From an uncultured Candidatus Saccharibacteria bacterium (GTDB lineage: Bacteria; Patescibacteriota; Saccharimonadia; Saccharimonadales; Saccharimonadaceae), in the NCBI GenBank assembly GCA_947304155.1, contig CAMZAD010000001.1, positions 186,001 through 250,000 of the forward strand: 64,000 nt of DNA, read 5' to 3'. Positions within the stretch are counted from its first letter, which is position 1. The number at the start of each line of letters is the position of its first letter. Both the position numbers and the translations under genes were made by a program. A model generated the notes under the pieces. It searched no databases and had not been told where the DNA came from. It saw nothing but the letters and a program-made list of their open reading frames with translations. Positions 15,768 through 29,484 of this stretch are shown here, one piece after another.

Positions 15768-15844
15768 GGGGTGTTAGCTCAGTTGATTAGAGCGCGTCGC
15801 TGGCAGCGACGAGGTCACGAGTTTGAGTCTCGTACACTCCACCA
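15768..15844 (+). tRNA. tRNA-Ala(GGC)
   Basis: A 77-nt cloverleaf with acceptor GGGGTGT/ACACTCC, which includes the G3-U70 pair that identifies alanine tRNAs. Anticodon stem CGTCG/CGACG with loop CTGGCAG (anticodon GGC). Encoded ACCA end. Confidence 0.96.
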
Positions 15845-15860
15845 TTTTTTATGCTTATAT

Positions 15861-18272
15861 TTAGTCTGCTACACAACGAACAGTTTTGCCCATTACGTTG
15901 TCTAGGTATGCATATGTCATTTGATTGCTACCTATATATAGGTAAATTGAATTCCATCTGTTTCCTGAGTTTGATGAGAATAGATAGATTGCGTCTCCAC
16001 GACTATCTAATCCGGTTTCGGTTACTCTACCTGCAAAAGTAAGATGCAATGCGTTTATTATGTCTTGCCTTCTTTCTGAATATGCTTGACCCATAGTTGC
16101 AAATTCTCCGCCGCTATATTTATCGCCTGTTGGCATATGCCAACCTTTTGGACAGATATCTTCTGGAAGTTGATTTATTGGTTCACTATCTGATCTTCCG
16201 CCTTTAAAGCAATATGAACCTGCTGACGCAGCACAATAGTTGTATAGTGCGCCTATTTTGCCTGGGTATCCTGCTTCTATTACTGTGTCTTTATCTCCGA
16301 CATAAATCATCGGTGTTGTGTAAGATTTTTTGTTTGCAAAGTACTCTACTCCGCTGGTTGGGTATCGATCGGTATCCGTTCCGCCACCGTTTTTAAACTT
16401 AGTAAGTGTTGTTTCAGAGGCGTTTGTATTGCCGACAAGTTTATTAAGTGGTGTTGCTACCATGTCTATGCGAAGGTTTTCAAGCGTCCAAACATTACCA
16501 TCGGCAATTCTACCAATTAGATATGATTCACCATCGCGTTTATCGTAGGCTGTAATTGTGTCGCCATTATTTGGGATAAGATCATCAAGTGTCGTTGACG
16601 TTGCATCTTGCATATAAAGGAGAGCTGTAATAGTACAGGTTGTGTCATTTTTGACATTATTTACAGTAATCGTGTTATTTTCATATGATGCAGTTTGCCC
16701 GTTTGTACATGTTACTTCCCCAAGAGTGTAATATTCATTTGGCGCAACATTATTAAATACCGCATTTTGATCGTAATTTACATTTTGTTCGCTCGAACCT
16801 GTCCCATTATTCACAACTAGTGTGACATTGTAAGTTTGATATGTTACATCAAGCGTACAGACAGTGTTATAGGTTACTGCATCGACTTCATATGTGGTCT
16901 TACTACTATAAATTCTTAAGTGTTGATTATTTGTGCAGGTCCCGCTGTTCACAATATAGCCCTGGACATTTTCAAATACTGCCGAGAATGTATTATTACC
17001 TTCGCCTTCTGGCACAAAATCATGCCCAAGTTGGTTACCAAATTGGTCATTAATTGTTACTTCATGGCTATAGATTGCTTTATATGACAAGTTTCTATCT
17101 ACAGTTGAAGGATCAATCGTAACATTCTCTTCACACTCGTATTCTGGCATTCCTGTTCCATGCCAACAAGCAAATACTGCGCCGTCTTTTGATGGTTTAT
17201 TTAACGTGAATGGCGCATCGGTGCCCTTTATTGTTGTTGGATTAGCTGTAGCTACTGTCCCGCCAGCGTAATCGTAAGTTATTCTATATCTGGCTTCTTC
17301 GTATAATACAGTTACACTAAAGTCATCCAGGATTAATGCTTCGGGATCTATTTCTGTATCAGTTCCAGTGAATTTAAAGCCTGAAACCATCAAGCCACTT
17401 GGAACTGGAACCCATTCAGGTGCAAATATGTCCCCAAAAGTATATCCATCTTCATATGAGATTGTTCCAAATTCTTCAGGTGTTACATGAGCATCTTCTC
17501 CGGTATCTGGGTCTTTCCAATATACTTCGCCAAAGAAATAGTCTCTTAATTTGATATTGTTATTTAGTAAGATATCCGTGTCTGTATAATCTTCTGCGAC
17601 GGCACCCATACAATAGAAGCCTGTTGCAGTAAAAATAATTGCAAAAACTAAGGTAGCTACTATGCGTTTTTTTCTAAATATAAATGCAATGACGAGTACA
17701 ATTCCGGCAATTATTATAGCAATAATGGCCGACAAGCTGGATGTTTGTCCTGAGAATTCACTCTTGAAGAAGTTTGCACCAGTATTTGGCACTAAAGCTA
17801 CTTCATCTTCTTCGACTTGGTTTGTCTGTAAGTCTAGATATGAAATCGTAAATTTAACACTATTATCTATAGTGCGATCAGTATTGTCTTCATGGGCTTG
17901 TTTGTAAGTGATTTTTACCTCGAGATTGAGGGCTTCACTAGCTTGAATTACTTCGTCAGCATGATTTTCGTATGAATAGTCAACCAATGTGCTGGTATTA
18001 TCATCTGAAATACCGATAATTTTAAGGGAGGTTGTGGTTGAGTTTTTTAGGCTCAAATTATAGGTCACATAATCATTTAGCTTGTGAAAAACAATTTTTG
18101 TGTTTACAGTGTTTCCGGAAATCGTTGGCGTTTCTGCGATAACATTCTCTGCTTTTTCAAGTATTATTGCATTTTCCAATCCAAAATTCCCTGCCGCTGA
18201 GACGACAGTAAATATGAATGCCGACATACAGCAAATTGTAAGCGCGGCAAAAATAGCCTTTATTTTTTTCAC
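15861..18272 (-). CDS. FISUMP-domain surface protein with internal VPNTG sorting-type signal
   Basis: 803 residues from a GTG at 18272 preceded by GGAGG. Order: signal peptide 1-28; extracytoplasmic beta-rich part; VPNTG at 161-165; hydrophobic span 180-199; RKKR 200-203; a second hydrophobic span 204-226; DxDTGED region. Then come Listeria-Bacteroides (InlB-type) repeat-like segments (YRITYDYAGGTVATANPTTI; TYQTYNVTLVVNNGTG) and a C-terminal FISUMP domain (RDGESYLIGRIADGNVWTLE; ICPKGWHMPTGD; ending VRCVAD). The first 203 residues look like a complete sortase substrate, making the protein resemble two proteins joined end to end. A sortase gene is at 27.4-28.0 kb. Unlike the other seven FISUMP proteins it lacks the TNA signal motif and stands alone. 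Confidence 0.85.
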   Translation of the reverse strand: MKKIKAIFAALTICCMSAFIFTVVSAAGNFGLENAIILEKAENVIAETPTISGNTVNTKIVFHKLNDYVTYNLSLKNSTTTSLKIIGISDDNTSTLVDYSYENHADEVIQASEALNLEVKITYKQAHEDNTDRTIDNSVKFTISYLDLQTNQVEEDEVALVPNTGANFFKSEFSGQTSSLSAIIAIIIAGIVLVIAFIFRKKRIVATLVFAIIFTATGFYCMGAVAEDYTDTDILLNNNIKLRDYFFGEVYWKDPDTGEDAHVTPEEFGTISYEDGYTFGDIFAPEWVPVPSGLMVSGFKFTGTDTEIDPEALILDDFSVTVLYEEARYRITYDYAGGTVATANPTTIKGTDAPFTLNKPSKDGAVFACWHGTGMPEYECEENVTIDPSTVDRNLSYKAIYSHEVTINDQFGNQLGHDFVPEGEGNNTFSAVFENVQGYIVNSGTCTNNQHLRIYSSKTTYEVDAVTYNTVCTLDVTYQTYNVTLVVNNGTGSSEQNVNYDQNAVFNNVAPNEYYTLGEVTCTNGQTASYENNTITVNNVKNDTTCTITALLYMQDATSTTLDDLIPNNGDTITAYDKRDGESYLIGRIADGNVWTLENLRIDMVATPLNKLVGNTNASETTLTKFKNGGGTDTDRYPTSGVEYFANKKSYTTPMIYVGDKDTVIEAGYPGKIGALYNYCAASAGSYCFKGGRSDSEPINQLPEDICPKGWHMPTGDKYSGGEFATMGQAYSERRQDIINALHLTFAGRVTETGLDSRGDAIYLFSSNSGNRWNSIYLYIGSNQMTYAYLDNVMGKTVRCVAD

Positions 18273-18356
18273 AAAACCTCCACGTTTCTTTACGTTATTT
18301 TAATGTTATCACGTTATTCTTTTATGCACAAGCGTTTTATCTACGTTCCTTCTTTC

Positions 18357-27351: not shown

Positions 27352-28047
27352 TTACATTAAAGTTGCACGCAAGAATTGGCGAGAGAGATAAGTCCTTTGT
27401 TTTTGACTCCATTCACCAACACATGAAATAATTGAAATCGATTCTACGCCTTCCACTGGACTATTTTGTATTTCAGCCATCTTTTTGTTTGCATCTTCTA
27501 GTTTTACAGAGACGTTATCATATACTCGATAGTTTAGTATTCTACCGTCTCCCATTTCAATTGTAATAATATCTCCTGCTTGAAGATTTTTTAGGTTTTT
27601 AAAGATACCGTTTACACCTGGGCCACCATTATGTCCATCTAAAATCGCCGTTTTGCCTGTTCCCGGCTTTGCAGATTTGTTATACCATCCCGCATCATAA
27701 ATGTTGTTTGGAGTTGCCATTTGACCATTTTTCTTTACTCCAATTTCAATAATCCTTGCATTATTTATGCCAAGTTTCTCAATCGTAATATAGCGTGGCT
27801 TATCTGCTGCAACTTTGTACTCTTTTACGGTCTTTTCAGGGATTGGCTCGTTTGAGACCTCCTCTTCTTCGACAACGAGATCTCCGACTACACCTGGAGC
27901 CATGCGTTCTGAGCCTTCTTTCTCGGCATAGTAATTCTTTTCCCAGATTGCAAGATATGTTACAAGCCCCAAAAAGATTACTCCGATAATACCGAATATA
28001 ATCTTTGGAATGTATTTTTTGATTGATCTTTTCACCTTTAAAGCCAT
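27352..28047 (-). CDS. Sortase (class E-like transpeptidase)
   Basis: 231 residues from the ATG at 28047 (AAGGG five bases upstream). One N-terminal span (about 15-34, PKIIFGIIGVIFLGLVTYLA) anchors it with the catalytic part outside. Active-site features: His139 in ILDGHNGGPGVNGIFKNLKN, Cys209 in SISIISCVGEWS and Arg218 in QKQRTYLSRQF. The YITIEKLGINNARIIEIGV strand pair is typical. Sortases cleave LPXTG-like signals and attach proteins to an amine or assemble pili; a VPNTG protein is at 15.9-18.3 kb. It follows secY after 21 bases, so Sec translocation and surface anchoring are cotranscribed. Class E is my best fit and not certain. Confidence 0.88.
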   Translation of the reverse strand: MALKVKRSIKKYIPKIIFGIIGVIFLGLVTYLAIWEKNYYAEKEGSERMAPGVVGDLVVEEEEVSNEPIPEKTVKEYKVAADKPRYITIEKLGINNARIIEIGVKKNGQMATPNNIYDAGWYNKSAKPGTGKTAILDGHNGGPGVNGIFKNLKNLQAGDIITIEMGDGRILNYRVYDNVSVKLEDANKKMAEIQNSPVEGVESISIISCVGEWSQKQRTYLSRQFLRATLM

Positions 28048-28068
28048 GCTCACCCTTAGTTTTTGTTG

Positions 28069-29484
28069 TTATTTGTAATCGTCGTATGTGACCATCAATG
28101 CACGTGAATCAAGTGAGCGAAGATTCTCGAGTGCGACTGTAACAACAATCAAGAGACCAGTACCAGTAATTGAGAGGCCAAGTGGAGCGCCATTTAAGAC
28201 AATGAAGATGTAATCTGTGATAAATGGAAGCATCGCAATAAGACCGAGACTAAGTGAGCCGAAGAAGTTCAAGCGTACAACGGTTCTTTCAAGATATTTA
28301 GCAGTAGTTTCACCTGGGCGAACGCCTTCAATGAAGCCACCTTGTTTCTGGAGATTATCAGCAATTTCTTTAGTATTAAAGATAATGCTGGTGTAGAAAT
28401 AGGTGAACATTACAACGAGCGCAAAGTAGAGTGCTGGGTAGACAAACCATTGGGCTGTGATGCCATTTGGATAAGTTGTTGTAAAGTTACTTGCATTTGG
28501 CGCAGTGAAGACTGTGGTCAAGGTTGAACCGATTTGGTTTCCTGGGTCGGCAGATGTAATAAATTGACCAATAAGAGCTGGGACAGAAAGGAATGCTGTA
28601 GCGAAGATCACTGGAACAACACCTGCAGAGATAAGTTTAAGTGGCAAGATTGATTTAATATCGCCGTAAGCTTGATTACCATGGACGCGTTTTGCGTAAT
28701 TAATTGTAATAATGCGTTGTGCTTCGTTGACCTTAACAAGGAGATAGAATGCAATAACCAGAGCGATGCCAAAGCCGAGGAGAATCCAGAAGACTGTTGG
28801 GTTTACTGGGAGACTGAACCAGCCAAAGAGTTCTAATGAGCCTTCAGAAGTATCAAAGAGTTCAGCGCCGATTTGTGCGGCGGTAGTTTGAAACTGAGAG
28901 ACGATGCTAATAAAGATGATTGTAGAGATACCATTACAGATACCTTGTTCGGTCATTAATTCACCAAGCCACATTAAGATAATTGAACCGGCTGTCATAG
29001 CTGTAACGGCGACAAACCAGTCGTGCCCCGTTGCAACGAAAGCGGTGCTACTATATGAGTCCATTGATTTAAAGAGAATATAGATATAAGCAATAGATTG
29101 GACAATTGCAAGAGGAACAGAGAGCATACGAGTCCATTGGTTAATCTTGCGACGGCCAGTCTCACCATCTTCAGAGAGTTCCTCAAGACGAGGAATGGCC
29201 TTAGTGAGAAGTTGAATCACGATTGATGCGGTAATGTATGGTGAAATACCAACAAGAATCACTGCGAAGTTTGCAAGTCCGCCACCAGAGATAAGATTAA
29301 TGAAGTTACCGAAGTCAGTTCTTGTGACAAGGTTTTCCATTGCATCATGGAAGGTTTTTGCGTCACCCATTGGAACTGGGATGTGAGCTAAGAAACGATA
29401 AACTACAACGATTCCGAGCACAATGCCGACACGTTTTAACATGTCTTTATTTTTGAATGATTTAAAAATTGTCTTGAAATGCAT
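28069..29484 (-). CDS. secY: Protein translocase subunit SecY
   Basis: 471 residues with ten predicted spans. Characteristic segments: KDMLKRVGIVLGIVVVYRFL, ISGGGLANFAVILVGISPYI, RRKINQWTRMLSVPLAIVQS, GTQL-like NGISTIIFISIVSQF, and EGVRPGETTAKYLERTVVRL near the end. It forms the SecYEG channel exporting the signal-peptide proteins seen here. It has its own -10 (29517-29522), separate from rplO. Confidence 0.96.
   Translation of the reverse strand: MHFKTIFKSFKNKDMLKRVGIVLGIVVVYRFLAHIPVPMGDAKTFHDAMENLVTRTDFGNFINLISGGGLANFAVILVGISPYITASIVIQLLTKAIPRLEELSEDGETGRRKINQWTRMLSVPLAIVQSIAYIYILFKSMDSYSSTAFVATGHDWFVAVTAMTAGSIILMWLGELMTEQGICNGISTIIFISIVSQFQTTAAQIGAELFDTSEGSLELFGWFSLPVNPTVFWILLGFGIALVIAFYLLVKVNEAQRIITINYAKRVHGNQAYGDIKSILPLKLISAGVVPVIFATAFLSVPALIGQFITSADPGNQIGSTLTTVFTAPNASNFTTTYPNGITAQWFVYPALYFALVVMFTYFYTSIIFNTKEIADNLQKQGGFIEGVRPGETTAKYLERTVVRLNFFGSLSLGLIAMLPFITDYIFIVLNGAPLGLSITGTGLLIVVTVALENLRSLDSRALMVTYDDYK

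Follow-up and report, generated by a model that had tools for sequence, protein, structure and literature searches.

Sorting signals of sortase substrates normally lie at the C-terminus of a protein, and they are searched for and defined there. In a 64,000 nt stretch of DNA from an uncultured Candidatus Saccharibacteria bacterium (the whole stretch is called the window in the following), a complete signal of this kind is found in the middle of a predicted protein of 803 aa, which continues with a long second part. How can such a signal act inside a chain, and what becomes of the part behind it? It appears that two separate surface proteins are encoded in one chain by this gene of the bacterium, a tiny gut symbiont.

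Layout of the putative precursor gene

The putative precursor gene is located at 15861..18272 on the minus strand, as are all its parts described below. It starts with GTG, and a GGAGG ribosome-binding site (18277..18281) is present 4 bases upstream of this start codon. A tRNA-Ala (GGC) gene on the plus strand (15768-15844) is arranged tail to tail with the precursor gene, 16 bases from its 3' end. Hydropathy analysis revealed three hydrophobic spans in the protein, at residues ~6-26, 178-199 and 204-226. The first belongs to an N-terminal signal peptide (residues ~1-26, 18195..18272) with a VSA/SAA end. It is followed by an Ig-like beta-sandwich domain (residues ~29-158, 17799..18188), the motif VPNTG (residues 161-165, 17778..17792) and the span TM1 (residues ~178-199, 17676..17741), which would be the hydrophobic, stop-transfer part of the sorting signal. 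The basic residues RKKR (200-203, 17664..17675) would form a cytoplasmic loop that is common to the sorting signal and to a second signal peptide, since we read the third span, TM2 (residues 204-226, 17595..17663), as an internal signal peptide. A predicted signal peptidase I site, AVA|E (residues 224-227, 17592..17603), is found at its end.

The C-terminal product (residues 227-803, 15864..17594) is predicted to be extracellular. A hydropathy scan of these 577 residues to the C-terminus (...TVRCVAD) detected no hydrophobic span, and the product is without a further sorting signal. The InlB-like and FISUMP features that a previous reading of the sequence alone had named for the part after the second span are recognizable, all below curated cut-offs. 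The stretch resembling InlB/Listeria-Bacteroides repeats (residues 329-371, 17160..17288) reached 21.3 bits with PF09479 (cut-off 27), and the FISUMP (Fib_succ_major)-like domain (residues ~592-781, 15930..16499) reached 28.9 bits with PF09603 (cut-off 33.9) and 32.5 bits with TIGR02145 (cut-off 41.65). By sequence similarity, this latter stretch is a divergent relative of FISUMP (E ~1e-7).

The sequence-only reading had also described a complete sorting signal inside one protein, and its coordinates and the VPNTG motif were confirmed. The protein has the N-terminal signal peptide and the succession VPNTG-TM1-RKKR of a sortase substrate, and VPNTG is followed by another 638 residues, so that the signal is not C-terminal. 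The only motif model with a match was that for NPXTG-anchored proteins (NF033846; 12.6 bits, cut-off 23.5 bits). Judged from these features, the protein may work like a sortase substrate, if not a standard one, and its cleavage by a sortase is predicted.

For the N-terminal domain, AlphaFold2 (17 rows) predicted a confident beta-sandwich, with pLDDT means of ten-residue blocks mostly at 85-96 for residues 31-120. Helices were modeled at residues 177-198 and 204-224 with low confidence, and confidence was low for the TM region and for everything after residue 220. Residues 23-170 of the model aligned to general Ig-like, appendage and PapD-like folds (Z 8-10), with no clear relative. No Pfam family matched the domain above its cut-off (scattered weak matches only), and comparison to solved structures by sequence gave no match. 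In other genera of the family, the profile of the module, that is the N-terminal part up to the end of TM2, weakly matched secreted proteins of 170-195 aa (E ~1e-6 to 1e-11; loci L274-L281), which have one signal peptide and no PxT-TM-TM part. These small proteins occur singly or in tandem and are clustered with a multi-span, signal-peptidase-like protein. We take them and their neighbor to be TasA/camelysin-like and SipW-like, respectively, in an arrangement resembling TasA/SipW clusters.

Recurrence of the module and of the PxT-TM-basic-TM cassette

The genome to which the window belongs has 771 kb on 11 contigs. The N-terminal module occurs in two more of its genes, there with different C-terminal parts. 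One is a frame of 738 aa with the motif VPDTGG and a metallo-beta-lactamase-type domain as the C-terminal part, the other a frame of 1652 aa with VPDTSG that encodes a long InlB-type repeat protein. About 20 FISUMP-like paralogs with one signal peptide each are also present in this genome, including those at ~44.8, 46.8 and 57.8 kb of the window.

A profile built from the three modules found relatives in 54 of 295 genomes of the family. With a profile of 55 rows, of which a 10-row subset was used to scan the genome contigs, we counted 77 full-length modules in 39 of the 295 genomes. Full-length modules were confined to two genera of Candidatus Saccharibacteria, g1, to which the window belongs, and g11. 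The relatives are mostly metagenome assemblies, several of them from the gut of sheep and water buffalo. The frames with full-length modules comprise 394-2945 aa, and the signal is internal in all of them apart from one at a contig end; the only short frame (234 aa) ends at a contig edge. Among the 68 modules that were read out, signal peptide, TM1, TM2 and a K/R-rich loop were present in all, three spans in module spacing having been required for inclusion, and nearly all were without a later span. The C-terminal parts vary and include FISUMP (the CPxGW signature followed 22 of the 68 modules), DUF285 repeats, InlB repeats, metallo-beta-lactamase and CHAP domains. The protein with a CHAP-type hydrolase as the C-terminal part (genome G193) is possibly a secreted enzyme that degrades cell walls.

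Two separate genes for the halves of the precursor, which the sequence-only reading had suggested looking for in related genomes, did not turn up: none of the 295 family genomes had a split module, in which a stop would follow the basic tail. The architecture is old and recurrent, and this speaks against a recent fusion of two genes, which the same reading had put forward. The matches that contained a stop were, as far as they could be read, ordinary signals at the C-terminus of other proteins (L314, L316, L319), and this was also the case for one match without a stop (L317). We also considered that an internal ATG might serve as a start codon for the C-terminal half alone and rejected this; there is no Met in the loop or at the start of TM2 of the window protein, and 15 of the 55 modules have one.

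The succession of PxT, TM1, basic loop and TM2 also occurs outside the module. It is carried by nine or more other proteins whose N-terminal parts differ from that of the module, in most cases before a long secreted part. Some of these proteins (six loci, one of them with two such genes) have only an N-terminal tail of 18-70 aa without a signal peptide, and the motif VPDTG, VPNTG or SPNTG thus represents a sorting signal almost at the N-terminus. Since the cassette recurs with different N-terminal and C-terminal parts, PxT-TM-basic-TM seems to be the conserved unit.

Conservation of the predicted processing sites and candidate enzymes

Among the 55 non-redundant modules, P162 and T164 of the internal motif were the only invariant columns. 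The next best columns were Y123 (54/55), N77 (52/55) and A226 (50/55). PxT was present in 55/55 modules in the alignment, and 53 of the 55 had P-x-T within 35 aa before TM1 compared to 13.2 expected from composition shuffles, a difference to which the presence of VPxT in the profile used to find the homologs adds a mild bias. The two remaining modules carry the motif just inside the computed TM1 (GPVTGDF and NPATNDN). A loop rich in K, R or H was present in 55/55 modules. The sequence-only reading had made its case depend on conserved VPNTG residues in homologs: this holds for P and T, but the fifth residue, G, is mostly kept in g1 only and drifts in g11.

A226 is the -1 residue of AVA|EDY at the end of TM2; it was Ala in 50 of the 55 modules, in a column that depends on how MAFFT aligned these divergent, hydrophobic segments. 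At position 224 (-3), only V, A, T, I, L, G or S occurred. The segment RKKR-TM2-AVA|E has the features of a signal peptidase I substrate, namely a basic n-region, a hydrophobic core and small residues at -3 and -1, and cleavage is predicted. In a simple signal peptidase test, TM2 passed in 41 of the 55 modules (15.9 for shuffled sequences); the test is not specific, as TM1 also passed in 24 of the 55 (6.0 for shuffled sequences). Because TM1 passes as well, the second cut is suggested mainly by the column conservation and by the stand-alone relatives. In the same genome, the FISUMP relatives are secreted as ordinary proteins on their own, each with one N-terminal signal peptide, and TM2 therefore seems to take the place of this signal peptide in the precursor. 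In the sequence-only reading, one of two options was that the C-terminal rest stays in the membrane. This is probably not the case, as TM2 resembles an internal signal peptide with a conserved signal peptidase site, and we therefore expect two cuts and two products. Linker and hairpin are otherwise weakly conserved, so that the best conserved positions in this region are those of the two predicted cuts. Both sites have been retained in relatives from two genera; a signal for the end of a protein is thus apparently used in the middle of one.

The internal motif was mostly VPxTG in g1 and mostly NPxTxD in g11. N or D before P was present in 2 of 21 internal motifs in g1 and in 20 of 34 in g11 (P = 0.0005), and G after T in 15 of 21 (18 of 21 if the last of tandem motifs is used) and 8 of 34 (P = 0.0007), respectively. 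Ordinary C-terminal signals changed in the same direction, with N or D before P in 1 of 17 in g1 and 5 of 7 in g11 (P = 0.003). The rows are related by descent, and all three P values therefore overstate the number of independent events; some of the C-terminal signals in g11 were found with the module profile, and the open scan alone, which is unbiased, showed the same trend. The genome of the window has the ordinary C-terminal signals IPHTG, VPDTG and VPDTG. In g11, one genome (G202) has NPHTED, DPYTDA, TPNTGD, NPITLA and NPNTLD, and NPRTND, NPRTYD, GPKTGD, NPQTED and APKTGD were found elsewhere. N, Y, E or L replaces G after T in ordinary C-terminal NPxTxD signals of this genus (L316, L317, L319, L290, and L152-L171 of G202). 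The LPxTG signals of one pilus-like cluster in g11 (G068, G109) were unchanged, and sortase matches were found in the same stretches. The simplest reading of these motifs would be that the same kind of enzyme recognizes internal and terminal signals.

The sequence-only reading had named the sortase at 27.4-28.0 kb as the obvious enzyme. A sortase gene is indeed present nearby (27352..28053, minus strand; PF04203 with 54 bits against a cut-off of 26.6). With four sortases encoded in the genome, however, there are other candidates. The best class match of the nearby enzyme was to the class F model NF033748, with 77 bits and thus below the cut-off of 166 bits. The gene lies between secY and rpsM in a ribosomal protein operon (27352-29484). 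Among the 30 best relatives of this sortase in the family, 29 adjoin secY and most also rpsM. The enzyme is widely conserved and plausibly a housekeeping sortase. Nothing links it to the precursor more than the other three sortases, and it is a candidate. Sortases were found in 293 of the 295 family genomes, and for this reason their co-occurrence with the module is uninformative. A sortase family was reported for more than half of CPR genomes (PMC6744442). The genome also encodes a signal peptidase I (PF10502, 105 bits).

Proposed processing of the precursor and comparison to known systems

We consider it likely that the gene encodes a precursor of two proteins that is cut twice, by a sortase at VPNT|G and by signal peptidase I after A226. 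The first signal peptide would start export, and the beta-sandwich domain would cross the membrane. TM1 would then stop the transfer and keep RKKR inside, so that residues 161-203 would represent an ordinary cell wall sorting signal. With a cut at VPNT|G, a sortase would attach the N-terminal domain to the wall or to a different acceptor. TM2 would act as an internal signal peptide and restart export, and signal peptidase I would free the InlB/FISUMP protein by cutting after AVA (residue 226). With these two cuts, equal amounts of two products would come from one transcript, a small domain that is anchored and a separate surface protein that is probably released. We infer both cuts, the acceptor, the release and the equal amounts from the sequences of the module and its relatives. 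More tentatively, and with somewhat less than even confidence, we extend this to a lineage-specific "two-for-one" export device, in which the PxT-TM-basic-TM cassette lies between an anchored N-terminal part and a long, exchangeable secreted part. As sortase and signal peptidase together would separate the halves, the action of the sortase would be coupled one to one to the release of a protein directed at the host. Two observations speak against the precursor that is cut twice: anchoring of an N-terminal domain makes little sense for the forms with a short tail and does not explain them, and G follows T in only 8 of 34 modules of g11.

Processing by a sortase alone, with the N-terminal domain removed at VPNT|G and the rest held in the membrane by TM2 as a type II anchor, is rather unlikely. 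The invariant P-x-T would fit this explanation equally, TM2 is long and hydrophobic, and 14 of the 55 modules fail the simple signal peptidase test. However, a plain anchor would not need Ala at 226 or the restriction to small or aliphatic residues at 224, and at the place of TM2, the stand-alone FISUMP relatives have a signal peptide that looks cleavable.

It is also quite unlikely that the chain remains uncut, with TM1 and TM2 as a two-span anchor, both halves outside and PxT as a structural turn instead of a sortase site. Every module indeed has a hairpin of two spans joined by a short basic loop, and G after T is often missing in g11. Against this stand the invariance of PxT within a linker that otherwise aligns poorly, its presence before hairpins with unrelated N-terminal parts, and its change between the genera, which runs parallel to that of real C-terminal sorting signals.

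The variable G position in g11 could also mean that the sortase site is vestigial and decaying, with only TM1 and TM2 still of importance. This is very improbable, since P and T show no decay in 55 divergent modules and the G position is variable in canonical C-terminal signals of g11, too. An accidental fusion or an assembly error that joined a sortase substrate and a FISUMP protein would agree with the normal C-terminal position of sorting signals and with the likeness of both halves to complete proteins, but it is refuted by the same layout and open frames in two paralogs and in dozens of independent assemblies, and its probability is negligible.

If the precursor is cut twice as we propose, a bacterium would use a virus-like polyprotein layout to obtain two surface proteins from one chain, one of them anchored and the other released. 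Searches limited to the C-terminus would miss a whole class of sortase substrates if internal signals are cut. Saccharibacteria live on other bacteria, and the exchangeable C-terminal parts, with adhesin-like repeats, CHAP hydrolase and metallo-beta-lactamase domains, could mediate contact with the host cell. In the open-access literature, we found no paper on an internal sorting signal or an internal LPXTG in connection with sortase, which is weak evidence of novelty, and no paper on FISUMP in Saccharibacteria.

The precursor shares the signal peptide, PxT(G), the hydrophobic span and the basic tail, and also their usual succession and spacing, with LPXTG-type sortase substrates (Gram_pos_anchor, NF033846). 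Unlike in these, the signal lies in mid-chain, and a second span that resembles a signal peptide comes immediately after it, before a second, long protein. The stand-alone FISUMP proteins of the same genome also have a C-terminal FISUMP-like domain and a secretion signal before the mature part, but are without an N-terminal sortase-substrate domain. The small proteins that we presume to be TasA/camelysin-like show weak profile similarity over the N-terminal domain; in contrast to the precursor, they have 170-195 aa, one signal peptide and no PxT-TM-TM part. In envelope proteins of flavi- and pestiviruses and in mammalian IGSF1, a stop-transfer span lies beside an internal signal peptide in one chain, and cleavage separates the exported products. 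A passage of PMC9162367 describes the cleavage of IGSF1 as co-translational. The bacterial precursor resembles these proteins in that a stop-transfer span adjoins a second, internal signal peptide within one chain, a likeness that implies no descent, and it differs from them in that its first product also carries a sortase site.
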